64,000 nucleotides of DNA from Microglena sp. YARC (Eukaryota; Chlorophyta; Chlorophyceae; Chlamydomonadales; Chlamydomonadaceae): positions 44,558,700-44,622,699 of the forward strand of contig CM039465.1 of the NCBI GenBank assembly GCA_022414725.1. The letters run 5' to 3'. The position numbers were made by a program, and so were the translations under genes. How positions within the stretch are numbered: position 1 is the stretch's first letter; the number at the start of each line of letters is the position of its first letter. Of the stretch, positions 13,414 to 37,300 are shown in pieces. The notes under the pieces were generated by a model that saw nothing but the letters and a program-made list of their open reading frames with translations, was not told the DNA's origin and did no database searches.

Positions 13414-14126
13414 ATGGCTTGATTCCCTTTACATCCGCCTTACATAAGCAGGATCAGATTCGTTCTATAGCACAGTTTAGAATGGGTTCCCATTGGCTGA
13501 ACACAGAAAGAATGAGGGTGGTGGATAGAGCACACATCCCTCGCTCAATGAGACACTGTCAAATGTGTGGGTTCCAAAAAACTGAGGATGAAATGCATAT
13601 GTTTGAGTGCCCTTTTCATAATGATATTCGCCTCCGCTACCAGAATCTGTTTACAGATATTTATAGGCATGTCCATGAGGATACCGACTTAACCGTATGG
13701 AATGTGGAATTCTGCGATTCCACATTCAGAACCTTTATGAATGGAAATGGCACTAAGTCTTTTTGGAGCAACCTAGCCGACTATCTTTCTACTTGTAGAA
13801 GAGCAAGACAGGAAGCCCTGGACTGCTTAGTGGCACCGTAATTTATTATCCCTTTTTTTTCTTCTTGAGACTTCTCATTTGTTAGCTTCTTACCTCCGCC
13901 ACTGTAAGTGGTTGAGATCTGGGTCCTGCTCTAAGGGGTTTAATACCTACGCCACCAAAACGGTGGTTGGGAGTTTGGTTTGTTTGTCCTCGACACACCC
14001 CTGATGTAATGGGGTTTTTTGCTTTGTGGGTGCTTTTTCTTTTTGTTTAAAGCACAGAGTCTCATACACCCTCGCGGTGTCAAGTAGACTTTAACATGTA
14101 ATGTAATGTAATGTAATGTAATGTAA
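13414..14126 (+). mobile_element. 5'-truncated LINE fragment inside the left element
   Basis: The open frame to 13841 matches the C-terminal end of a non-LTR retrotransposon ORF2. It has a zf-RVT-like C-x2-C-x9-H-x3-C cluster (C-Q-M-C-G-F then M-H-M-F-E-C) and ends at TAA. A 3' UTR and a (TGTAA)n tail follow, typical of some LINE clades. The fragment splits a 181-bp satellite unit after CTCAA and is absent from the matching position in the right element, so it inserted after the two copies diverged. The same 3' end is found inverted at 21155-22205. Confidence 0.85.
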
Positions 14127-15007
14127 CTGGTTACGGTTTAAACAGCGCAGATCGGTAACTACTGATTTAAACTCAGAACTTCCTCGTTCCTTCGAATCTG
14201 CTTCTGATCTTTGGTTTTCCTGAATCGGACTGATCACATATAGGTACCTGACAAGTTCAGGGACCATTTTCCTACTGTAGGATAGTCTATGGGTTCAGGA
14301 TCTCAACTGGTTACGGTTTAAACAGCGCAGATCGGTAACTACTGATTTGAACTCAGAACTTCCTCGTTCCTTCGAATCTGCTTCTGATCTTTGGTTTTCC
14401 TGAATCGGACTGATCCCATATGGGTACCTGACAAGTTCAGGGACCATTTTCCTACTGTAGGATAGTCTTTGGGGGTATGTTATAAAAATGTTTTAATACA
14501 TTGATGACCTCTTTGACATATATTCCAAAGCATCCCTTATTCATATCTAAGTCTATGTAACTTAAAGGAAGTACGGTATGCAAAGATTTGAATAGTTATT
14601 CATTAAATAATGCAGTTGTATTCACTGCTGAAATTGGGCCGAAATACCTACGGTTAATAAGCAATATAGACCCTTGTGCTAACCGTATATTCCCTTTCCT
14701 ACCCTTGCTGGCCCTTCACCGTTGGTTCCTCTCTTCCCTGTTCCAATAAATCCGGGACGCGAACTGTTGTAGTGCTAGCTGGACTGTTGTTCCAAGCAAC
14801 CGTGTACCGTACTCCTGTCCGGCTCTCAGCTGTCCCCGCGCCCAGTAGAAGATCCCTGGCAACGGAGCCCACGCACGCCAAACCCTGAACCCACAAACTG
14901 AACCGGCCAAGTGCAATTCGAGCCACCAGATTGTAAACTCGCATTCTGAACGCTATGCTACGATCCTCCTCTTCCTCTTTTTTTCTTCACTTCGACTGGA
15001 GACAACT

Positions 15008-15100
15008 ACTAACGAGGCAACGATCACAAGGCATACATGCATCGGTGAGCAGCCCTGGTCGCCAACTGCATCTTGGCCTTGTGATTGTTGCCTCGTTAGT
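15008..15100. repeat. About 24-bp inverted repeat before the H3 exon
   Basis: CTAACGAGGCAACGATCACA and its near complement (TGTGATTGTTGCCTCGTTAG) are separated by about 40 bp. In the right copy the arms pair exactly (about 31,455-31,550). It lies just upstream of the H3 exon and may shape that region; no function is known. Confidence 0.7.
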
Positions 15101-15104
15101 GCAA

Positions 15105-15684
15105 GCTGCTCCTCGTAGTTACACGAGGCTAGTTCGACAAATTGTACAAGATTTCGGAAATTACAGAATCCAAGCAGGGGCAAATTTGGCCCTTCAGGAA
15201 GCGACAGAGGCCTACTTGGTGGGCCTCTTCGAGAACACTAATCTGGCGGCTATACATGCCAAGCGGGTAACCATTATGCCCAAGGATATGCAGGTGCGCT
15301 ATCTACAGGGGTTGGGGGTGGGGTGGGGGGTGGGTGGGCGGGTTGGGGGGTAAGAGTTGGATCCACACAAAATATGCTGCAGCTTCTGGGCAGATCCCTA
15401 GGTGGGCAGTTGGCCTTCGGTAAAAATATGCTGCAGCTGCTGGGACCCGTACACGACAAAACACAACAGTACATTACACTACACTACACAACAGTACACA
15501 ACACTATACAACACTACACAACACTACACAACACTACACAACACTATAGAACAAGGGGTTGGGAGGGGGATGGGGGGGGGGGGGGGGGGGGGACTGAGCT
15601 ACTTGAAACACTCACTCATTCACTAACTTTGATGTCTGTTTCCACTTGCAGCTCGCTCGGAGGATTCGAGGGGAGCAAAACTAG
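15105..15684 (+). CDS. Histone H3-like gene, two exons, left element
   Basis: Exon 1 (15105-15293) encodes [10 protein letters not shown], then [16 protein letters not shown] and [15 protein letters not shown]: the H3 alpha1, alpha2 and start of alpha3. It ends at CAG|GTGCGC. Exon 2 (15652-15684) follows CCACTTGCAG and encodes [10 protein letters not shown] then TAG, completing the H3 C-terminus in phase 0. The intron holds a G-rich stretch, an ACAACACT-type microsatellite and a poly-G run. Loop 1 is one residue shorter than canonical H3, and the usual Cys in N-L-C-A-I-H is Ala. No N-terminal tail exon was found; the exon 1 start is estimated. The right copy has the canonical Arg (G-E-R-N). 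It may be an active variant or a captured fragment. Confidence 0.85.
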
Positions 15685-15724
15685 GACTTGGCAAGAAGTT
15701 GTGGTGAGTTATGTTTTCATGCCT

Positions 15725-16500
15725 GAACCACCCTCATGTAACAACTTAATTAATGCATGTTACTTATCAATAATATCATAATATGGCTTAGCTGAACCTA
15801 CCCATACTGTAGCCCGATAAGCGCCCTTGAGGCTGCTTGCTACAGAATGGGCGGGAGATGCGATTTGCCTTGTATGGTATGCCTTAACCACCCTCATGTA
15901 ACAACTTAATTAATGCATGTTACTTATCAATAATATCAGAATATGGCTTAGCTGAACCTACCCATACTGTAGCCCGATAAGCGCCCTTGAGGCTGCTTGC
16001 TACAGAATGGGCGGGAGATGCGATTTGCCTTGTATGGTATGCCTGAACCACCCTCATGTAACAACTTAATTAATGCATGTTACTTATCAATAATATCATA
16101 ATATGGCTTAGCTGAACCTACCCATACTGTAGCCCGATAAGCGCCCTTGAGGCTGCTTGCTACAGAATGGGCGGGAGATGCGATTTGCCTTGTATGGTAT
16201 GCCTTAACCACCCTCATGTAACAACTTAATTAATGCATGTTACTTATCAATAATATCAGAATATGGCTTAGCTGAACCTACCCATACTGTAGCCCGATAA
16301 GCGCCCTTGAGGCTGCTTGCTACAGAATGGGCGGGAGATGCGATTTGCCTTGTATGGTATGCCTGAACCACCCTCATGTAACAACTTAATTAATGCATGT
16401 CAGTAATAAAAAATATGGCTTAGCTGCACCTGCCCATTATGTAGCCGCATAAGCGCCCTTGAGGCTGCTTGCTACAAAATGGGTGGTCAATGCGTTTAGC
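15725..16500. repeat. 160-bp tandem repeat, five copies, left element
   Basis: Units containing CCACCCTCATGTAACAACTT and TGTAGCCCGATAAGCGCCC repeat about every 160 bp from 15,728. The last unit is diverged. The right copy has the same array at 30,030-30,830. An exon-like segment follows at 16,608, after the acceptor-like TTTTTCCCTTGCAG, but its frame could not be tied to H3, which already has a stop. Confidence 0.85.
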
Positions 16501-16776
16501 CATGTATGCATCCACCACCCTCTGCACACACTTAAGTCACCAACATGATAAGTGCAGCACATTCTAAGCAGCATTATCTTACTCATTCTAATGTTTTTCC
16601 CTTGCAGGTCATTCATGAATGCTGGCTGTTGGGAGCAAGTAAAGGACGAATATGCAGTAGTGGAGCTGCCTGGAAGCTGCCATCATGTGGTGCCAAGCTT
16701 AGCCAATGGGATATTAATGCATGTTAGTGCCCTGAATATATAGTAGCATGGAGCAGTAATCATAGGGTGACTTTAG

Positions 16777-16868
16777 TTTGGGTTTTGTTTATGAGGGTTT
16801 AAAGGTACTGCCTGTCCTTGTTGACCAGGACAGGCAGTACCTTTAAACCCTCATACAAAAAACCCAAA
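16777..16868. repeat. Long hairpin, about 40-bp arms, left element
   Basis: The two arms carry GAGGGTTTAAAGGTACTGCC and its complement around a 10-bp loop, extending to GGGTTTTGTTT and ACAAAAAACCC at the base with small mismatches. The right copy has it at 29677-29769. It could be a small foldback element nested in the larger one. Confidence 0.85.
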
Positions 16869-17039
16869 AATTTAATTTGAAATTTCAAGCACAGCAGTAG
16901 ATAGGCCTATTATCCCTTCCACCACCTTGGACAATAGCCGGGCCTGGTAGTTGACAATATACAGCCTTCTTGTGCGATACCCACGAGAGCACTGTATTGT
17001 ATTCATCAATTGTGCGATACCCACAACGATGAATACTTT

Positions 17040-17760
17040 CCCGACTCCTGAATTAGACCTAACTTCCAGCCAGCTCCATTAGGTTGTACAGCTTCCAGCC
17101 ATGGGTTGTACAGCTTCCAGCTAGCTCCTTAGGTTGTAGAACTTCCAGCCAGCTTCAATAGACTTTTACTTTGTGTGACAGGTTGTACAGCTTCTAGCCA
17201 GATCCATTAGGTTGTACAGCTTCCAGCCAGCTGCATTAGGTTGTACAGCTTCTAGCCAGCTCCATTAGGTTGTAGAGCTTCCAGCCAGCTCCATTAGACT
17301 TTCACTTGTGTGCAGGTTGTAAAGCTTCCACCCAGCTCCATTAGGTTGTACAGCTTCCAGCCAGCTCCATAAGACTTTCACTTTGTGTGCCAGGTTGTAT
17401 AGCTTCCAGCCAGCTCCATTAGGCTGTCTCTCTGTATATTAGGTTGTTGTGTAGCTTCGAGCCAGCTAAGCCGTCCTCAGCAGGAAAATTAAATATATGA
17501 TACCAATTTGTTTTCTGGCATTATATTTGTTTCCTTTCTTGTAAAAGTTTCTTTCCTACCATTGTCCAAAGTGCGAGTATTTAAACACGCACACACACCC
17601 TACTTGGGCTGTTTCCAAACTCCTACATTCAACTTCAACTTGGTTACATAGCCAGACTTCAACTTGGTTACATAGCCAGACTTCAACTTGGTTACGTAGC
17701 CAGACTTCAACTTGGTTACATAGCCAGACTTCAACTTGGTTACATAGCCAGTTGTGACAC
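17040..17760. repeat. Two short minisatellites, left element
   Basis: From 17,040 to 17,470 a roughly 30-bp unit (GGTTGTACAGCTTCCAGCCA type) repeats irregularly. From 17,625 to 17,755 a 30-bp unit (AACTTGGTTACATAGCCAG type) repeats five times and keeps one frame open (Y-V-T-K-L-K-S-G). Mirrored copies are at 28,785-28,915 and 29,080-29,480. Nothing suggests a real protein. Confidence 0.85.
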
Positions 17761-18155
17761 TTGAGATTACAGCCATCATCTTGCTAGCACCTACACCCCA
17801 CCCTAGATTTTTGTCTAGCCAATGAAAGCACAACTAATGTACTACAAGGTACGGATTTGTGCCGGTTATCGCTAGGCGCTCGCCCGCCTCGGATTCAAAG
17901 CTTCCTACCTCTCGGCAGCCTACATATGGGAGCTTAGCTACATTTCGAAGTGCAATATCTTCGACCACCTTGAATTCCGTTTGATATTGTCTTGATTGAC
18001 TTCCGTCTGATTCAATGAATAAGCTGCTTGAATTGAATCACTGATTCAAACTGTTTTCAAGGTACCCTGATTCAAGGGGAAAACCGCTTGATAGGGGTTC
18101 ATTGATTCAAACCAGTTGATTCAAACGATTTCAAAGGTCTGCCTAAATACCGACG

Positions 18156-18402
18156 TAGCAACATATGCCTTATTTCGAGCGCGCTCAGTCTCAAGCTCAA
18201 TCTCCAGACTATTCACTCGAGATGCATCTGCCTTCTTTAGAGAGTGCTCAAGCTCAAGCTCAATCTTCAGTCGAGCAGCATCTGCCTTATTTCGAGCGCG
18301 CTCAGTCTCAATCTCAATCTTCAGTCGAGCTATGTAAATAAAAGCGAAGGTAGCGATGCAGATAGGTATTACACTCGACGGAATACTAAAATGAAACCGC
18401 AT
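18156..18402 (-). pseudogene. Membrane-anchored coiled-coil gene, 5' part
   Basis: The start codon is at 18402. Residues about 9-26 (S-V-I-P-I-C-I-A-T-F-A-F-I-Y-I-A) form one hydrophobic segment, likely a signal anchor. Heptad-like repeats follow (A-R-L-K-I-E-I-E-T-E-R, S-L-K-K-A-D-A-S-R and E-L-E-T-E-R-A-R-N-K-A). The coding frame meets the element end at 18155 after TA. The 3' part is at 9805-10003. The insertion disrupts the gene. Confidence 0.75.
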
Positions 18403-18590
18403 TCTGAAGTGTACGGTACACCTTATGGTGTAACCTTATGGTGTAGCAACCCACATTGCAGTGGAACACCATCATGTTTTTTTGTAGCCCATCAACAACA
18501 CGCATCCCTGCAAAATGAAAGCAGTGGCTGGAGACGCGAGTTAGGATTCTCTTCTTTCCAGTCAATCTCATGGTGCCCGATACCAACAGA

Positions 18591-18616
18591 CCCGGGTTCG
18601 AATCTCGGCAACTCCA
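18591..18616 (+). pseudogene. tRNA 3'-end relic (T arm and acceptor)
   Basis: CCCGGGTTCGAATCTCGGCA followed by ACTCCA is a T arm plus a 3' acceptor strand. It ends about 20 bp from the 3' end of the nuclease-like gene at 18637. The paralogous locus at 8,300-8,480 has a tRNA-like sequence in the same relative place, so the two were duplicated together. Confidence 0.5.
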
Positions 18617-18636
18617 CAATTTTGCTCCTCCAATTC

Positions 18637-19233
18637 TTAGTAAATTTCCTGGCTGTGGATATCTTGACAGAAGACGCGTCCACCGCGATTCACAGCTGTC
18701 ACGATCATACGAGAAATTGTCACAGATCCAAGTGAGGTTCCGTCTTTCAGGTCCATGTTTATGAGATGCGGTAGCCAGGACAAAAGTCTAGTCGCGCACA
18801 TAGTGGCCTGCTGTATGGCTTTCAACACCTTGTCATGTCCATACCGGGCAGGGGGGTCTTTGAGGATTTTCGTCTCCACAACGAAAAGGGTGTTGATAGC
18901 ATGTGAGAATACAAGGGCGCCCCCGTTGGCGATCTTGCAGCAGCCGTCATCGAAGAAGTACTCCACAGCGACGAGGAACAAACGTGACGGTGGGGATGTG
19001 TGGTGTCTTTGTTTAATAAGGTGAAGCAATGCGTTATACTTCAAGATGCGTGGATCACCGGAAACATCCGATGACGCCCGCAGTGCATGGAGACGGCTGA
19101 CATTCTGGCATTGGAGGCGATTAAGAAACTTGGTTGTGCCGAGACTGTCCATGTCCATCGACAACGCCTTTCCTAGTTTGCGGACTGGTTTTGAAATGGG
19201 CTGACAAGGCGGGATATATATATCGGTCGGCAT
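18637..19233 (-). CDS. PD-(D/E)XK nuclease-like protein
   Basis: This encodes 198 residues, ending in TAA. The core at about 90-145 reads F-L-V-A-V-E-Y-F-F-D-D-G, G-A-L-V-F-S, L-F-V-V-E-T-K-I-L, then a Q-Q-A-T-M helix and L-S-W-L-P. The E-x-K in V-V-E-T-K, followed by a helix with a Gln, suits a PD-(D/E)XK nuclease, but the preceding acidic residue kept in the paralogue (G-D-A-L) is missing here (G-G-A-L), so catalysis is doubtful. Homology to the paralogue extends upstream of the ATG (K-R-V-F-I-D-A-M), so the original start may have been lost. The promoter-like GTTTACACTCGTTTTT is at 19315-19330, 82 bp upstream. Confidence 0.6.
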   Translation of the reverse strand: MPTDIYIPPCQPISKPVRKLGKALSMDMDSLGTTKFLNRLQCQNVSRLHALRASSDVSGDPRILKYNALLHLIKQRHHTSPPSRLFLVAVEYFFDDGCCKIANGGALVFSHAINTLFVVETKILKDPPARYGHDKVLKAIQQATMCATRLLSWLPHLINMDLKDGTSLGSVTISRMIVTAVNRGGRVFCQDIHSQEIY

Positions 19234-19314
19234 CGCGTCGATGAATACTCTTTTTCTTCTCGCAATCGCGCAATGGTTTTTATAAGATCATGTATATGGT
19301 ATGGATTTTGCGTT

Positions 19315-19330
19315 GTTTACACTCGTTTTT
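19315..19330 (-). promoter_or_regulatory. Promoter-like motif GTTTACACTCGTTTTT
   Basis: An exact copy lies 82 bp before the start codon at 19233. It is embedded in TGGATTTTGCG and GCGCACGAAACACTTGTCGTCG segments shared with 25,449-25,510. Equivalent copies lie at 24539-24554, 25459-25477, 36385-36400 and, on the other strand, 37788-37803. Confidence 0.65.
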
Positions 19331-19672
19331 AGAAGCGCGCACGAAACACTTGTCGTCGATTAAAGCCGCATTGAGTCTTACGCAACCGCATTCACTGTGG
19401 TTCGGTACTCAAAAGAAGCCTTGTATCAAGCAGGTGTCTGCTTGACAATCCTAGTGAAGTTCTGAAGGGGGGAGGGCGGGCACCGCGGAGCGGTGCAGAG
19501 GGATTCTTCTGCTGACTTGCGATACAGTCAACATAATACTAAAATGAAACCGCCCGCGCTCCCCCTTCAGAAACCAATCGAGCAGGAGTCTGCTTTAAGC
19601 CGCCGTGTGAGAATGAGTATGTAAGTATGTCACCGTGATCCCCGCAATCGGCACGACTGCCGACATGATCGA
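19331..19672. other. Intergenic with palindrome
   Basis: The palindrome TCAAGCAGGTGTCTGCTTGA is at 19426-19445, between the promoter of the nuclease-like gene and the 3' end of the primase fragment. A half copy (GAGCAGGAGTCTGCTTTAAG) is near 19,578, with one GCCGCCGTGTGAGAATGAGT copy. No gene is seen. Confidence 0.5.
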
Positions 19673-20050
19673 TCATGTATGTATCATCTTCTGTGTCAAG
19701 TTTAAGTTGTCGTCGACCGTGATGTAGTGTTTGGCTGTCTTCACAATATTTCGTGCACCTGCGCGCGTGCTGCTGTACTTTCTTGATTTCCCCGAATCGT
19801 TTATCATATGTTTGTTTGCTTCTTCGCACGCCCTGAACATGATGTCTTTGACGGCATTCTTGTCATTGGTCCAAACGTCTCCATGTTTTACCAAGACGAC
19901 CCCGTTGGACTTGACAAGCTTCCCTTCCAAATCCTTGAGCAGTATCTTTGCTGCAACGTTGTCTCCTACCACGTACCGAGGCGCACGTACGTGTGAGCCC
20001 ATGCACGCAGACGGCGTGACGATATCGATATCGATATCGATAGTCGTCAT
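19673..20050 (-). pseudogene. Fragment of a second TVpol/SF3 gene
   Basis: The 125 residues align with about residues 200-320 of the frame at 22203-24221 (R-A-P-R-Y-V-V-G-D-N-V-A-A-K-I-L-L-K-D-L, K-H-G-D-V-W-T-N-D-K, N-I-V-K-T-A-K-H-Y-I). Both the polymerase-like part and the helicase are absent. This is a truncated duplicate, with clear divergence from the larger copy. Confidence 0.8.
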
Positions 20051-20277
20051 GTCCTTTTATTCTCATTCAGATTTGTTGATGGAAGTGAATGCCCCCAGTA
20101 GTTATACTCCGTTTGGGGCTTCGAACCCCCCCGCCATGGCGTGTGGGGGGTGGGGGGTGTGAGGATCCCCCCGTGTCCTGTTGAGGGGGGTGGGTGGCCA
20201 TGGAACGACAAGACATAATCCCCCGCCGTGCGTGTGTGCGGGGGCGCCTATCATCACGGTGAGAGAGCCTGATGATG

Positions 20278-21150
20278 GACACTCAACGAACTAACGAACG
20301 AGTACAATGATGATGCGGTCGGTCGGTCGGTCGGTCGCTCACACACGGCAACCAACAACCACCTGATTCCTTCACCAATCTGAACTACAAATGTGACAGA
20401 TGTGACAGATGCGACAGTTATTTTACCAAACTATAAATTGACATATGGCATACTATATTTGTCAAGGAGGTCTATCAGATAATAGTTATGTCTATAACCT
20501 GTCACATTTGTCACATTGTCACAATTGTCTATCTTCATCGATAAGACGATCTTCCTGAACACACACACCTGATTCCCCCCTTTCCCACCATCTAGTTGTC
20601 TAGCAGAAGTCTGAGACATCCAGCCTCCGCCTATCACTACGACAGAGAGGGTATGTTTCCTTAATTTTGTTATTTCTGGTTATTTGGGGAGGGGGGAATA
20701 GCTCTACACACAAGCACTTCTCTGCTTTAAGTTGCCGTGAAATGTCATATGTGAGCGTGCACGAGTATGCAAAAGTCCCCATACAGTCTGATACAGAAAT
20801 TACTGTGTGAGAATGGACACTCAACGAACTAACAAACGAGTACAATGATGATGGATGATGCGGTCGGTCGGTCGCTCACACACTGCAAATGCGGCAACCA
20901 ACAACCACCTGATTCCTTCACCAATCTGAAATACAAATGTGACAGATGTGACAGATGCGACAGTTATTTTACCAAACTATAAATTGACATATGGCATACT
21001 ATATTTGTTAAGGAGGTCTATCAGATAATAGTTATGTCTATAACCTGTCACATTTGTCACATTGTCACAATTGTCAATCTTCATCTCTGTAAAATCATAC
21101 TCCCATGTCATCAATATCATCACCAAGTAGCGATAAGACGATCTTCCTGA
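20278..21150. repeat. About 290-bp direct repeat, each copy with a MITE-like foldback
   Basis: The segment from GGACACTCAACGAACTAAC at 20278 to about 20560 is repeated from 20815 to about 21150. Each contains an inverted-repeat core, with ends of the form ACAAATGTGACAGATGTGAC, at 20387-20528 and 20933-21074. A third, inverted core is at 36674-36812. GGTC microsatellites and short frames fill the rest. No gene is seen between the primase fragment and the LINE. Confidence 0.75.
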
Positions 21151-21154
21151 GTAC

Positions 21155-22205
21155 ACATTACATTACATTACATGTTAAAGTCTACTTGACACCGCGAGGG
21201 TGTATGAGACTCTGTGCTTTAAACAAAAAGAAAAAGCACCCACAAAGCAAAAAACCCCATTACATCAGGGGTGTGTCGAGGACAAACAAACCAAACTCCC
21301 AACCACCGTTTTGGTGGCGTAGGTATTAAACCCCTTAGAGCAGGACCCAGATCTCAACCACTTACAGTGGCGGAGGTAAGAAGCTAACAAATGAGAAGTC
21401 TCAAGAAGAAAAAAAAGGGATAATAAATTACGGTGCCACTAAGCAGTCCAGGGCTTCCTGTCTTGCTCTTCTACAAGTAGAAAGATAGTCGGCTAGGTTG
21501 CTCCAAAAAGACTTAGTGCCATTTCCATTCATAAAGGTTCTGAATGTGGAATCGCAGAATTCCACATTCCATACGGTTAAGTCGGTATCCTCATGGACAT
21601 GCCTATAAATATCTGTAAACAGATTCTGGTAGCGGAGGCGAATATCATTATAAAAAGGGCACTCAAACATATGCATTTCATCCTCAGTTTTTTGGAACCC
21701 ACACATTTGACAGTGTCTCATTGAGCGAGGGATGTGTGCTCTATCCACCACCCTCATTCTTTCTGTGTTCAGCCAATGGGAACCCATTCTAAACTGTGCT
21801 ATAGAACGAATCTGATCCTGCTTATGTAAGGCGGATGTAAAGGGAATCAAGCCATTCTCATCATTGCTGTTGGCTGCGAACCATTTTTGGTATCGGAGGC
21901 GTTTAAAGCCAACCCTTCTCTCATCAGGGATGTCTCTAACTGCATTGGTGTCACTTGGGTACTTAAACCTCCATGACTCAAAAACTTCAGACATAATACC
22001 TTCGACATCGACAGCCTCCAAAATGTTGATGTTTTTACTGGATCTTAGCTTGTGGAGAGCACAACGCAAGTCATGAACCCAGCCAGTGTTGGAGTCAAAA
22101 GATTCCTCAAGAGCCATTCTAATGAGATCCTCAGGTTCTTTATGTATGGTCTTGTTCCAGAAGCGCAAAGCTTGTTTAAGCCAAGCAAAACACAACGGGG
22201 TTCTA
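21155..22205 (-). mobile_element. 5'-truncated LINE fragment at the 3' end of the TVpol/SF3 gene
   Basis: About 260 codons (21428-22205, minus strand) encode the end of a LINE ORF2: L-K-Q-A-L-R-F-W-N-K near the start, D-E-R-R-V-G-F-K-R-L-R-Y-Q-K-W-F in the middle, and the C-x2-C-x9-H-x3-C cluster. A 3' UTR and ATTACATTACATTACATG tail follow, the complement of (TGTAA)n. The first LINE codons overlap the last bases and TAG stop of the replication gene, so the insertion probably removed that gene's natural end. It is nearly identical to the shorter copy at 13414-14126, indicating recent activity. Confidence 0.85.
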
Positions 22206-24458
22206 GACACGAACTTGAATCCCCCCCTCCTGACGCATTCGATCCGCTACTGCCCCCATTTTCTCCAACCTTCCCCTCAATCCGCGCGTTTTCATCTTTT
22301 TATCCTTTGCAAACTCGTTGACATCAGCCACCGTCACGACGTCTGCAAGGTCCTTTGTTATCTTGAAGTGCGCATTGATCAGCGAGAGCTCGTCGCCCTC
22401 ATCCATCCTGAGCTTCTCTGTGTCCCGACTGACGACATCAGATATCTGGAGTGGCTGCTCTTGATCGAAGGCATCTATCACGAGCCATATGAACGCATCC
22501 CTCACGTCCTCCCGGGCGCAGAATCCGTCCTTGAGCGAGGGGTCTGCAGGCCTGAAGAACTTCAACCACTTTGCCTCATCTACGTCCTTAGGATTGACGA
22601 ACTTGTGCGGGAACTCTATAACAACCACCGTGTCCAGAGCATCCACTGCTGAAATCTCTGGGAGGTCATTCAGGTTCATGAATAATTGTGAAGCGCTCTT
22701 GAGCGCCCTCTCGTTCTCGTACAACTGGCGTGCCTTCAGGACGTCGCCTCCAGATTGAAATTTCTTGATGAGCCCACCGTCCAGCTTGATGTGCTTGTTC
22801 CCTGGATCCACCTTGATTTCATTGGTGTACGTCTGCCTCGTGAACTCACACTCGATCATCCAACCCTGCGACTTGACGTCGTTCGTAAAGTTGTTGAGCA
22901 TGAGGACGCTTGAATCTATCGTGTTGACATACTGACCCCAGGCCCTCTCATTCAGCGCCTGCAACAGGCCCTTTCCTGAGTTGCGCTCCCCGATCATCAT
23001 CCCCCAGTTCTTGTCCCCGTGCTTCCCTGCCATCGCGCGGGCAATCATCTTAAGGTATGTCTTGACCCTCCCCTCTTCCCCCAGAGTCGATACGAGCACC
23101 TTCTCCTTGACGTGTTCCAATAATTCGTCAGTCGGCCTCTCGCTTGGAAAGTCCCTGTCGATGACAATGACGGGCATGACTTCCGGCCTCTCCGAGAAGG
23201 GGGCGAATGACTTGTCCCGGAACCTGAAAACGCCATTTCGGAAGCATAGGACTCCCAGGTTTGACTCCCATATCTTTTTTACAAAGTTGTCGTCGACCGG
23301 GATGTAGTGCTTGGCCGTCTTCACAATGTTGATAGCCTTTGTGTACAAGCAGCTGTACTTCCTTGAAGTCCCAGATTCGTCGACAAACTTAATGTTCGCC
23401 ATTTGACACGCCGTGAACATGAAGGATTCGACGACATCCTTGTCATTGGTCCAAACGTCTCCATGTTTTCCAAAGACGACCCTTTTGGACTTGACCAGCT
23501 TCCCTCTCAAATCCTTGAGCAGTATCTTTGCTGCAACGTCGTCTCCTCCTGCGTACCTAGGTGCATGTACGGGTGCGCCCATGTACGCAGATGCCGGTAC
23601 GTCCAGCATATCGATCGTCATGTCCTTAATCTTGATTTGAAGCCTGTATCCCGTCCTGTCCCACACGTAATCTGACGCCTCATCGAGCATCTCCTGCGTG
23701 ACCCCTCCATCCTTGGAGTCTGCAAACTCCTTTTTCTTCTCGACCATTGCTCCGTCAAATACCAGCACACCGACTTTGAACAATTTTTTGTCGAGGTATT
23801 CTAGCATCGCCATGAGGCACTCGTTCTCCAAATCGCATAGCATGAGGTTCACAGCCGATGCATATGTGTTCCTGTCCTTGCGCGCAATATCTATGTAAAA
23901 CTCGTCCGCGCCTCCCGGAGCCATGATCTCATCCCTGGCCTGATTCATCTCATTCTGAAAGTCGCGCAGCCATACTGAATCCTGATGCGTGTATACGGCA
24001 GTCTTGCTTCCATTCATGACGGATAGGACAGCCGTCTTCCCCTGCACCGCGTCCGCATCGATGTCGCCTAGGACCTCCGTCCGGTTTCCACAGAAATGAT
24101 CGAGGAGCGGACATGCCACCCCCCGTTTCCTGCAGCGTTGCGAGAATAGCGTGGGGTGACAGTTGACAAAATCGAGGTCGACATAAAACGGGTGCGCCAC
24201 CGCGTTCCTGACCTCCCGCATGACACACTACATAGAAAGCCCGCGTTTCGCAAACAGCCTCCCCCTTCCGTGTTTATTCTTTGCGTATTCCACGTGGACC
24301 GAGTCTCCGTCAGCTGCAGCAAAGTATCGTTGGATGGTGTCTAGAGATTTTGACTTGTCCTTATCCTTTCGGAAGTCCCACGACTCCCAGTGCTCCATGA
24401 CATGTTCGAGTGCGCCGCGCGAAAAGCGTTCAGTGAGACTGCAAGCTATCATCTTCAC
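22203..24458 (-). pseudogene. TVpol-like DNA polymerase/SF3 helicase fusion, one in-frame TAG
   Basis: Reading from 24458, 76 codons end at a TAG (24228-24230); the same frame then continues for 672 residues. Across the stop the order G-R-G-R-L-F-A-K-R-G-L-S-M, stop, C-V-M-R-E-V-R-N-A-V follows the pattern of related viral proteins, where a Gln is usual at that spot. The polymerase-like region has Y-V-D-L-D-F-V-N-C-H-P (near 13 of the 672) and L-V-F-D-G-A-M-V (near 150). The SF3 helicase has Walker A G-E-R-N-S-G-K-G (near 410), the Walker B-like M-I-E-C-E-F, F-Q-S-G-G-D, and motif C F-M-N-L-N-D-L-P. The C-terminus is cut by the LINE at 22205. The combination suggests TVpol, known from virophages and polinton-like viruses; the assignment is by motif. 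Confidence 0.75.
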
Positions 24459-24538
24459 TCGATTATCGATGCTGCTGCTGTTGGATTTTCAATATTTTTT
24501 CATAAAAAACGGATGAATGGGAATGTTTTCCCCCCTCC

Positions 24539-24554
24539 GTTTACACTCGTTTTT
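24539..24554 (-). promoter_or_regulatory. Promoter-like motif GTTTACACTCGTTTTT
   Basis: An exact copy lies 81 bp upstream of the first ATG of the TVpol/SF3 gene, with the CCCCCCTCC context also found at 36,377. This supports 24458, not 24221, as the true gene start. Confidence 0.65.
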
Positions 24555-24852
24555 AGAAAACCGCCGCCGCAGCCTCCGTGGTGTCTTGTGGAAACAGATG
24601 GACGAATGGGGGGGCATGCGCAAGCCGCCGTGGCACATGCGGCCTCTTGTGTCCTCCTATACATTCGACAGTGTTCCGCCGTTTGCGTGTGTCCTCCGAT
24701 GGACCAGTCAGATCCTAGGACACGTGTTTCCGCGAGTCCGCATCTGAATTCCCCTGCCCCACTCCGTGGGTCCCGCGATTGATTGATTGTTTATAAAGTA
24801 TAGCTTTCCACTTGTTGTCTCAAACAGGCTTAAGACGGGCACCGAGGACTAC
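24555..24852. other. Intergenic EVE repeats
   Basis: This stretch holds a GCCGCCGTGG copy near 24,627, the TACATTCGACAGTGTTCCGC unit near 24,658, and the CCCAC-TCC-GTGGG hairpin at 24758-24770 without the following palindrome. No gene is seen. Confidence 0.5.
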
Positions 24853-25428
24853 TTACTTTGGCCTTGCTACGGCCAGTAAGACCTTGCCCCCTAACCTGCT
24901 CCCGGTCATGGCGTAGAAAACGAATGACCACCCCCTTGTGAGAATTAGGTGCGCTCCTCCCAAACGGTGCGCATCATCATGCGAGTCGATGAGTGTGTAC
25001 CTTGCAGCACCGGGTGTGTGTGACAAAATGTTGACTGCCTCCTTCAGCATCTCAAAGACCGACGCTGTATAAATTGATCCGTTTGGTAAATGTAGGCAAT
25101 GCAACCATACTGCGTTGCACTCCCATATATCGTCATCGAATGTAACATGGTCCACGTACTTGAAGCGAAGTCTTGGCTCGATACTAGAGATGTTGCACCA
25201 CAGCCTATCGGCTCCCGGCCTCAACCAACCTCGTAGACGCGGCATTTGCTTGCGCTCACCACGGAATTCGATCATAAGGCGGTCTTGATTCCGACTTGAT
25301 TCCGACACGCTATCCTGCTTTTGCTGATCTGAAGAAGCACTTGGGGGCTTGCAAGAGTTGTCTTCGAGCTTCGCTGGACTGTACTTAGGCGTGGCCAAGG
25401 CCCCCTTAAAAGTATTGAGTGTATCCAT
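24853..25428 (-). CDS. Hypothetical EVE protein
   Basis: This encodes 191 residues, an intact frame with the promoter-like motif TTTCTTACACTCGTTTTTTT starting 31 bp upstream of the ATG. The N-terminal 50 residues are Ser/Gln-rich and probably disordered. The rest is a compact domain with W-L-R-P-G-A-D-R-L-W, D-D-D-I-W-E-C-N-A-V-W-L-H-C-L and Y-T-L-I-D-S-H-D-D-A-H-R-L-G-G-A-H-L. I recognise no family. The shared promoter and intact frame make a real gene likely. Confidence 0.55.
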   Translation of the reverse strand: MDTLNTFKGALATPKYSPAKLEDNSCKPPSASSDQQKQDSVSESSRNQDRLMIEFRGERKQMPRLRGWLRPGADRLWCNISSIEPRLRFKYVDHVTFDDDIWECNAVWLHCLHLPNGSIYTASVFEMLKEAVNILSHTPGAARYTLIDSHDDAHRLGGAHLILTRGWSFVFYAMTGSRLGGKVLLAVARPK

Positions 25429-25458
25429 TGTACATCTGTAATCTGTACGGATTTTGCG

Positions 25459-25477
25459 TTTCTTACACTCGTTTTTT
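25459..25477 (-). promoter_or_regulatory. Promoter-like motif, variant GTTTCTTACACTCGTTTTT
   Basis: This copy has a small change in the GTTTACAC part. The flanking GGATTTTGCG and GCGCACACGAAACCCTTGTC segments match 19,300-19,355. It is the closest of the set to its start codon (31 bp). Confidence 0.6.
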
Positions 25478-25560
25478 TGAGGCGCACACGAAACCCTTGT
25501 CGTCGACTAAATCCGCATTATGACGCGCGTCCCAACTCTCTATCAAGGCGTAATCCAAGG

Positions 25561-25681
25561 TGTTTTCGCGCGCCTCGAAGCTTCACACGAGTCCTCAACT
25601 GAATTCCCCTGCCCCACTCCGTGGGTCCCGCGATTCATCTTTCATACTCCCGACATAGTTGTCAATCAGAAGTCTGCTTGA
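25561..25681 (+). promoter_or_regulatory. Bipartite hairpin/palindrome intergenic element
   Basis: The hairpin CCCAC-TCC-GTGGG (25613-25625) is followed by TCAATCAGAAGTCTGCTTGA (25662-25681). The first 85 bp are nearly the same as 6,602-6,687. Confidence 0.6.
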
Positions 25682-26636
25682 GACGACACGTGTCCCCATG
25701 CGCATCGAACCACGAGTGTAAACAAGTCATATCCGACACGTGTCCCCATGCGCCTCGAAAAATACGAACCCTACTTGACGCACCCAGGCCAAGCCACACA
25801 CACCCCAGCCATGTCAATCTTAACCAAGTACCGAAGTACTCCAATTCTTCTCTCACGAACTCAGTGTGTTCGGGAGTATCCAGCGAACTCCGAAAGCTAA
25901 TTCCGAGGGTGAACTCAGTGTGTTAGGGAGCATCCAGCGAACTCCGAAAGCTAATTCCGAGGGTGAGTTCAATAGTAGCAGTCATCGAGATCTAGTCATG
26001 GTTACTTTCATTGCTGCTATTATTTGCGAGGCTTGCTAGCTCTATGTCTCCACCTGCGAAAGCATTATCCAGTCATGGTTACTTTCATTGCTGCTAGTAT
26101 TTGCGAGGCTTGCTAGCTCTATGTCTCCACCTGCGAAAGCATTATCCAGTCATGGTTACTTTCATTGCTGCTAGTATTTGCGAGGCTTGCTAGCTCTATG
26201 GCTCTACCTGCGAAAGCATTATCCAGTCATGGTTACTTTCATTGCTGCTAGTATTTGCGAGGCTTGCTAGCTCTATGGCTCTACCTGCGAAAGCATTATC
26301 CAGTCATGGTTACTTTCATTGCTGCTAGTATTTGCGAGGCTTGCTAGCTCTATGGCTCTACCTGCGAAAGCATTATCCAGTCATGGTTACTTTCATTGCT
26401 GCTAGTATTTGCGCTGGCTTGCTAGCTCTATGGCTCCACCTACCTGCGAAAGCATTATCCAGTCATGGTTACTTTCATTGCTGCTAGTATTTGCGAAGTT
26501 CGCGTTTGGATTGCGCTGGCTTGCTATCTCTATGGCTCCACTGCGAAAGCATTATCCAGTAATTGATTGCGAAGATTGTGCTGGCTGCGAAAGCATGAGC
26601 TGACCAAACATCCACCCATGTTCGCAGGCACTGAAG
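25682..26636. repeat. 56-bp duplication and a 77-79-bp tandem array
   Basis: ACTCAGTGTGTTCGGGAGTA and the 56 bp around it are duplicated at 25,857-25,966. From 25,990 to 26,560, seven units with AGTCATGGTTACTTTCATTG and GCGAGGCTTGCTAGCTCTAT repeat every 77-79 bp; the last units are rearranged. The rest of this stretch holds no gene. Confidence 0.85.
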
Positions 26637-26909
26637 ATGGCTATGAAGAAGAAAGGGTCTATCAAGATTCGGCTCCGAACTGAAAGGTGTATGGAGTTCG
26701 AGTATGTAGGAAGTTTGCCGTACATAAAGCATGGCAACTTTTGCATCATCGACGAGGATGGTGGCGAGGATGTCTACAGAGAAGGGGTTCGACTGCGAAA
26801 TTTGAAGCACTCGTCATCTCCATATTTTCGTGTCCTAATTCTGGAGATGTTTGGTATGCCTCTCCCTTTGCTGGTGAATTGCAGGGATTGCCCTGCAAAT
26901 GCAGTTTGA
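26637..26909 (+). CDS. Possible small gene or exon, unknown
   Basis: This encodes 90 residues opening M-A-M-K-K-K-G-S-I-K-I-R-L. The segment with M-E-F-E-Y-V-G-S-L-P-Y-I-K and I-I-D-E-D-G-G-E-D-V-Y looks like folded protein rather than repeat translation. The C-terminal ten residues look like read-through into non-coding DNA. A GCAG precedes the ATG by eleven bases, so it could be an exon. No family is recognised. A GGAGAT microsatellite follows at 27,004-27,041, and nothing is seen from there to 27,388. Confidence 0.35.
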   Translation: MAMKKKGSIKIRLRTERCMEFEYVGSLPYIKHGNFCIIDEDGGEDVYREGVRLRNLKHSSSPYFRVLILEMFGMPLPLLVNCRDCPANAV

Positions 26910-27388
26910 CAGTCGATCACTCGACTACATTCGTAGCCTATAACTGTGGTGTATGCCCACTTAGCATGGCGGCGGGTGGGGCTGGAGGTTGATGAGGTGG
27001 GGGATGGAGATGGAGATGGAGATGGAGATGGAGATGGAGATCTATTGATTGAGAGCTATTGTAACCAGTTGCATCCGCCCACTCTTCTCCTTGTCCCACT
27101 CATTGTCCCTGTGACACTCCAGGTATTTTGTCTTTTGTCTTTTTGAATTTGTATGAGACGTTCTGGAGGCTCTAAATTCTGAGTAGACATTTTTAAAAAT
27201 CCGCCCGGAGGAAGGAACGCCCATTACATGCATAATCGTCCGCACTGCGTGTATACCTTGGGCGAGAAGGGAGTAGTGGGACACTTTGTATTTCATGCTA
27301 AAGTGTGCTTAAGGAAATGTGGTGCATGATTTTATCACCAAAAGAATAAGAGAGGATCTTAACATCATCATTATAATGCAAACATAGA

Positions 27389-27959
27389 ATGGGTGATGCA
27401 AATCATCCTTTACCTGTTCTACAAAATAGTGCATGTACCCCCAATGACAGTAACCACATCGTCAATAATGTGCTCCATTATGTAAACAAATGCACAAGTA
27501 AGGTATTAATCATTGTATTTCCAGAGTGTGGCAGCGGATATCATGAGTGGAATGTGTTAATAGCCCTCATTCAAACCGGTTATAACATCAATACAGCGAT
27601 TTTCATGGATAGCCATATCGATCCCCCATTCGGTGGACGAGTGGCTTAGGCTGTCTCAAGTGCACCATGTCGAGACAAAAGTTGTTGACTCGTACGTAGC
27701 GCTAGAGCATTGGACGAAGCAGCAAACCTTCCCAAACAAAGTGTTTGTAATTTACATCAATGGTGGGCTGAAGTTCGGTGAGTCGTATTGTGCCAAACAC
27801 GGATCCCCTGCATGTCTCACTGCGGCGGCACAATTCTGGAAGTGGTGTGACCAGAACGCATCTAACCAACTCACAATTAATTTCATTGGACGAGACATGC
27901 GACACCCTGCCGATTGCAAGTCATGGACTGAATTGGCTAACACGTTCACTAAACTGTGA
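27389..27959 (+). pseudogene. Unknown gene with one frameshift
   Basis: Two frames follow one another. The first (27389-27649) has V-L-I-I-V-F-P-E-C-G-S-G-Y-H-E-W-N-V-L and A-I-F-M-D-S-H-I. The second (open through 27959) continues V-D-E-W-L-R-L-S-Q-V-H-H-V and K-V-F-V-I-Y-I-N-G-G-L-K-F-G. The frame changes between about 27,609 and 27,648. The alternating strand-and-helix pattern suggests a Rossmann-like enzyme fold, but no motif identifies it. This is probably one gene of about 185-190 residues with a single indel. Confidence 0.5.
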
Positions 27960-28063
27960 TATACATTTTGATCTGGTCGTTGACAGGGTTGATCCTATCC
28001 GGTATGATAATTAAATCAGGCCAAAAAGCATAAGGCGATGATAATTCTTAAAGAAAAACTAAG

Positions 28064-28387
28064 ATGAACGCTTGTCGCTTGGTTATTCAGGCATCTACTC
28101 ACCCCGTGTCTGATATAGATAGAGTTGTTTCGCGTCAAGACTGCTACATACATGTCGATCTGAACAGGGAGATATGTGAAGACTTCAACGAAATACAAGT
28201 TGATTTACCTTACATGCAAACAACTAGAGAACCAGGGAGATTGCTGGTGTTCAAAGAAAATGATTTCTTGCATGCAATTAATAACATGAGTCAAACGCGT
28301 CCACATAGTATCGAAACAGCCCTCCGATTTGCTAACCTATTCGGACTACATTCAACTGAGCTGCACTTTCTTAGAATTTGCAGTAAA
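28064..28387 (+). pseudogene. Unknown gene truncated by the right 7.45-kb element
   Basis: The frame opens M-N-A-C-R-L-V-I-Q-A and runs 108 codons to L-R-I-C-S-K, where the element begins at 28388; the remaining codons up to 28444 are element sequence. Beyond the far end of the element (35842) the frame would continue for only eight codons to a TGA. The family is not recognised. The segment D-F-L-H-A-I-N-N-M looks like a structured domain. Confidence 0.45.
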
Positions 28388-28784
28388 CGTCGGTATTTAG
28401 GCAGACCTTTGAAATCGTTTGAATCAACTGGTTTGAATCAATGAACCCCTATCAAGCGGTTTTCCCCTTGAATCAGGGTACCTTGAAAACAGTTTGAATC
28501 AGTGATTCAATTCAAGCAGCTTATTCATTGAATCAGACGGAAGTCAATCAAGACAATATCAAACGGAATTCAAGGTGGTCGAAGATATTGCACTTCGAAA
28601 TGTAGCTAAGCTCCCATATGTAGGCTGCCGAGAGGTAGGAAGCTTTGAATCCGAGGCGGGCGAGCGCCTAGCGATAACCGGCACAAATCCGTACCTTGTA
28701 GTACATTAGTTGTGCTTTCATTGGCTAGACAAAAATCTAGGGTGGGGTGTAGGTGCTAGCAAGATGATGGCTGTAATCTCAAGT

Positions 28785-29480
28785 GTCACAACTGGCTATG
28801 TAACCAAGTTGAAGTCTGGCTATGTAACCAAGTTGAAGTCTGGCTACGTAACCAAGTTGAAGTCTGGCTATGTAACCAAGTTGAAGTCTGGCTATGTAAC
28901 CAAGTTGAAGTTGAATGTAGGAGTTTGGAAACAGCCCAAGTAGGGTGTGTGTGCGTGTTTAAGTACTCGCACTTTGGACAATGGTAGGAAAGAAACTTTT
29001 ACAAGAAAGGAAACAAATATAATGCCAGAAAACAAATTGGCATCATATATTTAATTTTCCTGCTGAGGACGGCTTAGCTGGCTCGAAGCTACACAACAAC
29101 CTAATATACAGAGAGACAGCCTAATGGAGCTGGCTGGAAGCTATACAACCTGGCACACAAAGTGAAAGTCTTATGGAGCTGGCTGGAAGCTGTACAACCT
29201 AATGGAGCTGGGTGGAAGCTTTACAACCTGCCACACAAGTGAAAGTCTAATGGAGCTGGCTGGAAGCTCTACAACCTAATGGAGCTGGCTAGAAGCTGTA
29301 CAACCTAATGCAGCTGGCTGGAAGCTGTACAACCTAATGGATCTGGCTAGAAGCTGTACAACCTGTCACACAAAGTGAAAGTCTATTGAAGGTGGCTGGA
29401 AGTTCTACAACCTAAGGAGCTAGCTGGAAGCTGTACAACCCATGGCTGGAAGCTGTACAACCTAATGGAGCTGGCTGGAA
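28785..29480. repeat. Minisatellites of the right element
   Basis: The 30-bp AACTTGGTTACATAGCCAG-type repeat and the irregular roughly 30-bp GGTTGTACAGCTTCCAGCC-type repeat appear here in reverse, matching 17,040-17,760. Confidence 0.85.
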
Positions 29481-29676
29481 GTTAGGTCTAATTCAGTTGT
29501 AGGGAAAGTATTCATCGTTGTGGGTATCGCACAATTGATGAATACAATACAGTGCTCTCGTGGGTATCGCACAAGAAGGCTGTATATTGTCAACTACCAG
29601 GCCCGGCTATTGTCCAAGGTGGTGGAAGGGATAATAGGCCTATCTACTGCTGTGCTTGAAATTTCAAATTAAATTT

Positions 29677-29769
29677 TTGGGTTTTTTGTATGAGGGTTTA
29701 AAGGTACTGCCTGTCCTGGTCAACAAGGACAGGCAGTACCTTTAAAACCCTCATAAACAAAACCCAAAC
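29677..29769. repeat. Long hairpin, right element
   Basis: This is the counterpart of 16777-16868, with arms carrying GAGGGTTTAAAGGTACTGCC and its complement around a short loop. One extra A in the right arm distinguishes it from the left element. Confidence 0.85.
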
Positions 29770-30029
29770 TAAAGTCACCCTATGATTACTGCTCCATGCT
29801 ACTATATATTCAGGGCACTAACATGCCTTAATATCCCATTGGCTAAGCTTGGCACCACATGATGGCAGCTTCCAGGCAGCTCCACTACTGCATATTCGTC
29901 CTTTACTTGCTCCCAACAGCCAGCATTCATGAATGACCTGCAAGGGAAAAACATTAGAATGAGTAAGATAAATGCTGCTTAGAATGTGCTGCACTTATCA
30001 TGTTGGTGACTTAAGTGTGTGCAGAGGGT

Positions 30030-30830
30030 GGTGGATGCATACATGGCTAAACGCATTGACCACCCATTTTGTAGCAAGCAGCCTCAAGGGCGCTTATGCG
30101 GCTACATAATGGGCAGGTGCAGCTAAGCCATATTTTTTATTACTGACATGAATTAATTAAGTTGTTACATGAGGGTGGTTCAGGCATACCATACAAGGCA
30201 AATCGCATCTCCCGCCCATTCTGTAGCAAGCAGCCTCAAGGGCGCTTATCGGGCTACAGTATGGGTAGGTTCAGCTAAGCCATATTATGATATTATTGAT
30301 AAGTAACATGCATTCATTAAGTTGCTACATGAGGGTGGTTCAGGCATACCATACAAGGCAAATCGCATCTCCCGCCCATTCTGTAGCAAGCAGCCTCAAG
30401 GGCGCTTATCGGGCTACAGTATGGGTAGGTTCAGCTAAGCCATATTATGATATTATTGATAAGTAACATGCATTCATTAAGTTGTTACATGAGGGTGGTT
30501 CAGGCATACCATACAAGGCAAATCGCATCTCCCGCCCATTCTGTAGCAAGCAGCCTCAAGGGCGCTTATCGGGCTACAGTATGGGTAGGTTCAGCTAAGC
30601 CATATTCTGATATTATTGATAAGTAACATGCATTAATTAAGTTGTTATATGAGGGTGGTTAAGGCATACCATACAAGGCAAATCGCATCTCCCGCCCATT
30701 CTGTAGCAAGCAGCCTCAAGGGCGCTTATCGGGCTACAGTATGGGTAGGTTCAGCTAAGCCATATTATGATATTATTGATAAGTAACATGCATTCATTAA
30801 GTTGTTACATGAGGGTGGTTCAGGCATGAA
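30030..30830. repeat. 160-bp tandem repeat, right element
   Basis: This is the mirror of 15,725-16,500, about five units. It has private differences, for example CATTCATTAAGTTG in several units where the left copy has the equivalent of CATTAATTAAGTTG. Confidence 0.85.
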
Positions 30831-30862
30831 AGCATAAACTCACCACAACTTCTTGCCAAGTC

Positions 30863-30951
30863 CTAGTTTCGCTCCCCTCGAATCCTCCGAGCGAGCTGCA
30901 AGTGGAAACAGACATCAAAGTTAGTGAATGAGTGAGTGTTTCAAGTAGCTC

Positions 30952-30985
<34 letters not shown>

Positions 30986-31452
30986 ATCCCCCTCCCAACC
31001 CCCTTGTTCTATAGTGTTGTGTAGTGTTGTGTAGTGTTGTGTAGTGTTGTATAGTGTTTGTGTACTGTTGTGTAGTGTAGTGTAGTGTACTGTTGTGTTT
31101 TGTCGTGTACGGGTCCCAGCAGCTGCAGCATATTTTTACCAAAGGCCAACTGCCCACCTAGGGATCTGCCCAGAAGCTGCAGCATATTTTGTGTGGATCC
31201 AACTCTTACCCCCACCCCGCCCACCCACCCCCACCCCACCCCCAACCCCTGTAGATAGCGCACCTGCATATCCTTGGGCATAATGGTTACCCGCTTGGCA
31301 TGTATAGCCGCCAGATTAGTGTTCTCGAAGAGGCCCACCAAGTAGGCCTCTGTCGCTTCCTGAAGGGCCAAATTTGCCCCTGCTTGGATTCTGTAATTTC
31401 CGAAATCTTGTACAATTTGTCGAACTAGCCTCGTGTAACTACGAGGAGCAGC
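30863..31452 (-). CDS. Histone H3-like gene, two exons, right element
   Basis: Exon 1 (31264-31452) encodes the same residues as the left copy, from about [10 protein letters not shown] to K-D-M-Q, and ends at CAG|GTGCGC. Exon 2 (30863-30895) follows TTCCACTTGCAG and encodes [10 protein letters not shown], then TAG. The Arg here is the canonical H3 residue, so the left copy's Gln (CGA to CAA) is the derived state. The intron carries a long poly-C run on the plus strand and an ACAACACT-like microsatellite. No tail exon was identified upstream. Conserved exon sequence beside variable intron repeats is compatible with selection, but the sample is only two copies. Confidence 0.85.
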
Positions 31453-32089
31453 TTGCACTAACGAGGCAACGATCACAAGGCCAAGATGCAGTTGGCGACC
31501 AGGGCTGCTCACCGATGCATGTATGCCTTGTGATCGTTGCCTCGTTAGTAGTTGTCTCCAGTCGAAGTGAAGAAAAAAAGAGGAAGAGGAGGATCGTAGC
31601 GTAGCGTTCAGAATGCGAGTTTACAATCTGGTGGCTCGAATTGCACTTGGCCGGTTCAGTTTGTGGGTTCAGGGGTTTGGCGTGCGTGGGCTCCGTTGCC
31701 AGGGATCTTCTACTGGGCGCGGGGGACAGCTGAGAGCCGGACAGGAGTACGGTACACGGTTGCTTGGAACAACAGTCCAGCTAGCACTACAACAGTTCGC
31801 GTCCCGGATTTATTGGAACAGGGAAGAGAGGAACCAACGGTGAAGGGCCAGCAAGGGTAGGAAAGGGAATATACGGTTAGCACAAGGGTCTATATTGCTT
31901 ATTAACCGTAGGTATTTCGGCCCAATTTCAGCAGTGAATACAACTGCATTATTTAATGAGTAACTATTCAAATCTTTGCATACCGTACTTCCTTTAAGTT
32001 ACATAGACTTAGATATGAATAAGGGATGCTTTGGAATATATGTCAAAGAGGTCATCAATGTAATAAAACATGTTTATAACATACCCCCA

Positions 32090-34020: not shown

Positions 34021-34289
34021 TTTGATTAGCATGACCCCCATCAGGGTTGTCTAGGTCCTGCGACGCAGATCCCGCATGCACCGCAGGCGCAGGCCCCGAG
34101 AATCCGATTCAAATATGGCGACCTGCTTCTCCGACCATGCGCGTGCGGTTACGGCGGTACTGCATGCTGTACAGTTCAAACTGGTCAGCGCAATGGGTTA
34201 GCGCTTCAACTTAGCGGCTGTGCAAGCTTTCACTGTTCACTGCGCGTCAATTGGTTCTCGACTCAGCGATATTCCTGCAGAATAGCGCA

Positions 34290-35690: not shown

Positions 35691-35841
35691 TCGGTAGGTT
35701 TGATGGCCGACTGATTCAAACAGGAAACAAAGATCGATTGAATCAAGGTTATCTCCGATTGAATCTAAGAATGAATCAAACGAACAATTCAAACAGGATT
35801 TTCTTTGTTTCAAACCCTCAAAGAAGTACTAAATACCGACG

Positions 35842-37290: not shown

Positions 37291-37300
37291 TTTGTAAAGG

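Follow-up and report, generated by a model that had tools for sequence, protein, structure and literature searches.

A transposon carrying the 3' part of a histone H3 variant gene in the green alga Microglena sp. YARC

How part of a histone H3 gene came to lie inside a mobile element, and what became of it there, are the questions raised by a stretch of 64,000 nucleotides from the genome of the green alga Microglena sp. YARC (GCA_022414725.1, contig CM039465.1, positions 44,558,700 to 44,622,699 of the forward strand), referred to here as the window. A preliminary description, made from the letters of this DNA, had reported two copies of an element with an H3 fold gene inside and had proposed that the element could supply its own chromatin mark or represent a capture in progress. 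In the present analysis, for which the genome (568 Mb in 2390 contigs) was searched, the account we favour, with a probability of roughly 0.85, is that a non-autonomous DNA transposon with terminal inverted repeats (TIRs) acquired, by capture at the DNA level, the 3' portion of an intron-bearing, divergent host H3 variant gene and was then amplified, as in Pack-TYPE transduplication. The element would have taken up this part of the gene with its introns and then multiplied to some 150-190 copies, with a transposase probably supplied from elsewhere; the H3 piece would be carried as a passenger, giving at most a truncated core without alphaN and tail or a non-coding RNA, and the copies would decay neutrally after insertion. 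What is observed in favour of this account are the ends of the element, its target duplications, its copy number, the lack of a recognisable transposase, the source family and both edges of the captured segment.

Ends, target sites and copy number of the element

Copy 1 occupies positions 10004-18155 of the forward strand (8152 bp, including an insertion of 713 bp from the 3' end of a long interspersed nuclear element, LINE), and copy 2 positions 28388-35841 of the reverse strand (7454 bp). They lie inverted around a 10-kb spacer and are about 99% identical outside the LINE insertion. Their limits were taken from the breakpoints of the alignment between them, which stops exactly at the 13-bp TIRs, CGTCGGTATTTAG on the left (10004-10016, +) and CTAAATACCGACG on the right (18143-18155, −), and the copies fetched from elsewhere in the genome end alike. 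The CGTCGGTATTTAG ends are present in both window copies, each of which has both termini, and in three of the four fetched copies, while the fourth, L039, has only the right end within its stretch. Copy 1 is bordered by TA on the left (10002-10003) and on the right (18156-18157), with junctions TA/CGTCGG...CCGACG/TA; it interrupts a 54-bp tandem unit that the flanks on either side continue, so that the inferred empty site has a single TA. A 2-bp YA target duplication was recognised in four of the five copies with both ends seen (TA, TA, CA, CA), the three fetched ones showing CA/CA, CA/CA and TA/TA, and was missing at the ends of copy 2.

No transposase domain was detected in the ten scanned of the 38 open reading frames (ORFs) listed, nor a hAT transposase domain among these ten, and the target duplication comprises 2 bp and not the 8 bp of hAT elements. 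The longest ORF within copy 2 is the one containing H3, with 203 amino acids from stop to stop. The LINE 3' end is found at 13412-14124 (+) in copy 1, is missing from copy 2 and recurs inverted at 21155-21856.

For the copy number, occurrences were counted with up to three mismatches, reversed patterns serving as controls and giving zero. The left end of the element occurred 190 times in the genome (107 and 83 on the two strands) and the H3 core 157 times (90 and 67). The 100 listed exact left ends were then paired with exact cores on the same strand within 13 kb downstream, for which 92 of the 100 listed cores could be used, the other eight lying beyond the last listed left end. A core followed 68 of the 100 left ends, in 57 of these pairs at a distance of 3.5-5.5 kb, and 24 exact cores were without a listed left end. 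Of the 32 left ends not followed by an exact core, two that form a pair were read: one led to a mismatched core and the other belonged to a copy of the 5' half. As left ends mostly pair with cores, and as the seemingly H3-less pair held a mismatched core and a 5'-half copy, the H3 piece is common in the copies and probably the rule; absence of the exons, which the preliminary description had named as the finding that would speak against it, is not the norm.

H3 exons and their source in the host genome

In copy 1, exon A (15119-15293, +) extends from alpha1 to the Q preceding the C-terminal exon and ends CAG/GTGCGC, and exon B (15652-15684, +) follows TTGCAG and runs to a stop; their counterparts in copy 2 lie at 31264-31438 (−) and 30863-30895 (−), the latter likewise running to a stop. 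The exons are joined in phase 0 in both copies, exon A is identical between them and exon B differs by Q/R, which bears out the two exons, matching GT-AG sites and common phase described previously. The spliced product was assigned to the Pfam family Histone (E=3.2e-24) and aligned to solved H3 chains far beyond chance (best E=1.7e-27), with the conserved alpha2-alpha3 region and C-terminus of the H3 histone fold and a single gap in loop 1. This gap confirms the earlier observation that loop 1 is one residue shorter than in canonical H3. A lengthened loop 1 is a criterion for CenH3, and a CenH3 identity was rejected in view of the shorter loop and the high identity to ordinary H3. Replication-dependent histone genes are marked by a 3' histone stem-loop; none was present among 12 Rfam matches to copy 2 at E<=5, and the gene in the element, unlike such genes, has introns.

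The usual N-terminal tail, already reported as not visible, was not found either: tblastn with seven H3 proteins (E up to 50, 60 best alignments) gave no convincing alphaN or tail in either copy, the sole match of this type inside the element being weak (E=1.6) and falling within the LINE that interrupts copy 1. An N-terminus supplied by a continuous upstream ORF was rejected, its ATG at 14955 in copy 1 being ACG in copy 2, a comparison confined to the window copies by the fetched alignments, which begin just past 14955.

In the host genome, alphaN and tail are present in a small family of full-length three-exon H3 variant genes, with two intact and three damaged loci, which we regard as the source. 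It was found with the element's own exon and peptide as query, 150 of 443 first-look candidates being scored. Among these best 150, only ordinary H3 genes (79-81%) matched the peptide up to residue 68, and the four rows of lower identity that were read turned out to be two damaged element copies and two full-length variant genes. The latter, the intact loci C3:18125743 and C4:8828299, have three coding exons, GT-AG introns and a coding sequence of 405 nt including the stop, and their products differ by one residue; exon 2 is unbroken from PGTVALREIRK via the short-loop stretch to KDMQ. A search with the region of exons 1 and 2 (best 40 of 199 candidates scored) gave five long matches and a short split match on C6. 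The long matches are the two intact loci, a third with 100% identity over bases 63-381, one with 91% and one with 82%, these last three carrying frameshifts or stops.

The segment common to the element and the host gene (15124-16645, +) comprises part of exon 2, intron 2, exon 3, an intron in the 3' untranslated region (UTR) and the start of the 3' UTR exon. It measures about 1.5 kb, and its aligned pieces are 95-99% identical to C3:18125747-18127957 (L086/L087), with near-identity at the start of intron 2 (160/163) and in the 3' part (920/930). Similarity stops at both edges, at 15124 inside alpha1 and source exon 2, and, within the 3' UTR exon, near 16645. Of the 134 codons of the source, 68 are thus contained in the element, and since the H3-derived stretch starts at 15124, the apparent acceptor of exon A sits beside the capture breakpoint. 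The tandem repeats of intron 2 and the 3' UTR intron, in the latter a 160-bp repeat (15719-16508, +) that is also present in the source gene, differ in length between element and source. As introns and UTR were carried along, the capture took place at the DNA level. Two hairpins adjoin the segment, at 15008-15100 (81% self-complementary) and 16777-16868 (91%; 29676-29768 in copy 2); the second gave matches to microRNA families with scores far under the gathering scores.

A loop 1 of the same reduced length (GxYRIQ) was noted in two database H3 variants, P0007 and P0161, which have divergent tails in which the canonical K9 and K27 appear to be replaced, as judged by eye on the alignment; a further database entry, P0003, is an unspliced contig translation. 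A host gene resembling P0007 with a short loop was not encountered in the 32 loci read (150 matches scored). Grouping the element H3 with P0007 and P0161 by the short loop was rejected, as 20 of the 21 inner branches of a 24-row tree were open; the tree placed the element H3 with another row at weak support. A viral origin was rejected as well, scans of viral contigs with the element H3, P0161 and a second H3 family of the host (see below) having yielded no relative, nor did a scan with P0001.

Divergence, variation among copies and competing explanations

The element was compared with 32 host H3 genes, 20 canonical and 12 of the second family (35 tried, three dropped for length). The proportion of synonymous differences (pS) was 0.78-0.91 and that of nonsynonymous differences (pN) 0.15-0.19, and between the source gene and four canonical genes pS was 0.80-0.87 and pN 0.14-0.15, all pS values being uncorrected for codon bias. 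Against the canonical gene L002, differences at the three codon positions numbered 18/8/41 (p=2.7e-6). The H3 variant lineage is therefore old and was constrained before the capture. A neutral simulation against P0007 and P0161, in which frames without stops and with a BLOSUM score of at least the observed one occurred in 0.0145 and 0.002 of runs, respectively, is superseded by the comparison with host genes.

Variation after amplification was examined in 31 distinct copies chosen by similarity, namely 30 fetched loci (from 40 scored of 522 candidates; one is copy 1 of the window) and copy 2; scored copies were 97-100% identical to the query. Over 68 codons, eight nonsynonymous variant sites stood against one synonymous, with 1/5/3 at codon positions 1/2/3 and one more in the split codon at 15119, and neutral proportions were not rejected (p=0.46). 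Six of the 31 copies are broken, five by frameshifts and one by a change of the GT donor to GC, and in the other 25 both exons remain in frame and the GT-AG sites are preserved. The comparison of copies gives no hint of selection acting on the protein. Substitutions are not concentrated at third positions, a pattern that the preliminary description had itself listed as adverse. Of its two proposals, capture is supported, with a full-length source family and both edges of the segment located; an own chromatin mark is not supported, as the element lacks the tail on which marks would be placed and purifying selection among copies was not seen.

Apart from the uncorrected pS values, several observations weigh against the account of capture, amplification and neutral decay. 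An autonomous partner supplying the transposase was not found, nor was the superfamily assigned, and the source loci identified are sisters of the ancestor of the element, not its exact parent. Variation per cell was lower in exons than in unique flanks (1.65 vs 4.38 per 1000, Fisher p=0.0005), in a test whose cells are not independent and include one duplicate row. Counted as variant sites, exons and flanks gave 10/208 and 95/1188 (p=0.12, same duplicate row), and a recount against upstream sequence plus unique intron 10/208 and 27/305. Weak constraint on the exons is thus possible, and errors of the assembly could account for some of the frameshifts. In the 68 codons, element and source are separated by five synonymous and seven nonsynonymous differences, or five and five without two breakpoint codons. 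The exon differs at 10/198 positions as opposed to 13/1093 in adjacent non-coding sequence, taken from the first stretch of intron 2 and from the 3' portion (p=0.001); much of this non-coding sequence is tandem repeat, where best alignments may flatter the identity. Seven of the ten exon differences fall in codons 3-21 (p=3e-5), beside the breakpoint (15124-15293 vs L086:648-817). This excess of exon change is beyond simple capture and drift. The other source-family loci, where aligned, have the source state at the sites concerned. The residues V and D, found in canonical H3, occur at two sites of the element where the source has L and G. Either a mosaic involving a paralog outside the sample or damage to the DNA at the junction of capture is possible.

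The same exons would acquire a function if the captured piece were expressed as a tail-less H3 core without alphaN, which enters or poisons nucleosomes and aids the element, for example by loosening silencing. A possible start exon, ATGCATCG followed by GTGAGC (15037-15044, +), is predicted to be joined by a 74-base GT-AG intron (15045-15118) to exon A, giving a protein of 71 residues. Its ATG is present in 31/31 distinct copies, the three-exon frame with GT-AG is intact in 25/31, and 18/31 encode an identical predicted product. Consistent with expression are also the alignment of alpha1 to alpha3 to solved H3 throughout, the lower per-cell variation in exons and the expressed sequence tags (ESTs) described for a transposon-borne H3-like gene (H3L) of Pyrenophora (PMC3538342). 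However, since the copies are young, intactness of the frame is expected and proves little, the more so in copies selected for similarity; the variants among them are nonsynonymous in eight of nine cases, alphaN and tail are missing, and the first exon is predicted solely from an ATG and a GT-AG pair. We therefore regard expression of such a core as unlikely.

To about the same degree it appears doubtful that the copies act as RNA, with the captured exon and intron giving rise to small or antisense RNAs that silence the parental H3 variant genes. The long near-identical stretches common to element and source, the many copies and the hairpins beside the captured segment would suit such a role, but the hairpins fall outside the part that is common to the source. 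Less probable still is a combined reading in which a tail-less core without alphaN, from a short-loop variant and under the element's own start exon, forms nucleosomes that cannot be modified and that protect the element and its neighbourhood from silencing, the coding change near the junction being adaptation.

That the full-length loci arose in the reverse direction, by insertion of a piece of the element into a host gene, could be argued from the element far outnumbering the full-length genes. However, five loci have in common the tail exon, intron 1 and an alphaN-alpha1 exon without a break (one locus lacks the start of exon 1). Two of the five have diverged, matching the C3 locus at 91% and 82% across the query, and have the source state at the element-difference sites where aligned. 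It is the element that breaks in mid-exon; with the flanks of the full-length genes read to about 300 bases upstream, this direction seems very improbable. A long inverted repeat or segmental duplication in place of a transposon, suggested by the inverted arrangement in the window, can be dismissed almost entirely given both termini on each window copy, the number of left ends genome-wide, the target duplications and the position of copy 1 within one interrupted tandem unit.

Other features and comparison with known systems

Besides the source family, the host genome contains a second amplified H3 family (L055-L069, L076-L078), of which 15 loci were read, mostly full-length intronless variants with a normal loop 1, an altered tail (MARIKQIARKSTCSK...) and common 5' flanks (95.7% mean identity over about 82 bases). 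Nearby ORFs encode a minor capsid P9 transmembrane domain (L078:421-1068, −, E=5.6e-9) and a DDE_3 domain (L078), and L077 has a Cas12f1-like TNB match just below threshold; because of these neighbours, the second family is possibly part of mobile DNA, of endogenous viral or other origin. About 80 canonical H3 matches with top scores were each continuous, i.e., intronless, in the search, and those that were read have NLAAIH in place of the commoner NLCAIH.

Within the window, 22203-24221 (−) holds an ORF of 672 amino acids without a Pfam match; its relatives in EukProt and in metagenome sources range from near-identical to more distant, and a D5_N domain is present in a few of them; two of the 90% clusters comprise 14 and 26 members. 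A D5_N-type protein is encoded at 1112-2449 (−), a weak match to T5orf172 below threshold lies at 2772-4094 (+), and dispersed repeats are common to 1-9800, 24600-25700 and 37300-37800. The region 1112-4094 with its dispersed repeats looks virus-derived, with the transposons inserted into it. A 50-bp minisatellite with about 193 copies extends from 38033 to 47661.

The element adds a case in which a transposon spreads H3 sequence outside the fungi, where such cases have been published, and source genes, breakpoints and many copies are all readable in one genome. With these, one can test what becomes of a core histone after its capture, be it an effect of dosage, small RNAs directed at the parent variant or the production of a truncated histone. 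The host has also turned out to possess an H3 variant whose gene bears introns and whose loop 1 is shortened.

Pack-TYPE transposons (Pack-MULE, Pack-CACTA and others) have been described in plants, where, as outlined in PMC8903248, non-autonomous TIR elements multiply fragments of host coding genes between their ends. The Microglena element agrees with them in its TIRs, target-site duplication, lack of a detected transposase of its own and captured coding DNA with a gene of the parent family elsewhere; it differs from that outline in that one captured gene is present in well over a hundred near-identical copies, in a green alga. Capture of H3 by hAT elements has been published for Pyrenophora (PMC3538342) and for Pseudocercospora and relatives (PMC6710886), and a literature search covering titles and abstract openings turned up no transposon-borne H3 outside fungi. 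In Pyrenophora tritici-repentis an H3-like gene divergent from host H3 was likewise amplified between TIRs in nearly identical copies; according to PMC3538342, these are hAT elements with full-length H3L copies and ESTs, a longer form having a full-length transposase. The element described here, in contrast, has 2-bp duplications, no detected transposase and a fragment with introns that lacks tail and alphaN. For Pseudocercospora fijiensis and relatives, PMC6710886 describes an intronless, transcript-derived H3 copy with hAT domains, inactivated by repeat-induced point mutation (RIP), whereas in Microglena introns and 3' UTR point to capture at the DNA level and the source is a divergent variant. 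H3 capture itself is thus known from fungal hAT elements, and what the present case adds is that the captured H3 variant is divergent and intron-bearing and was taken up as DNA.

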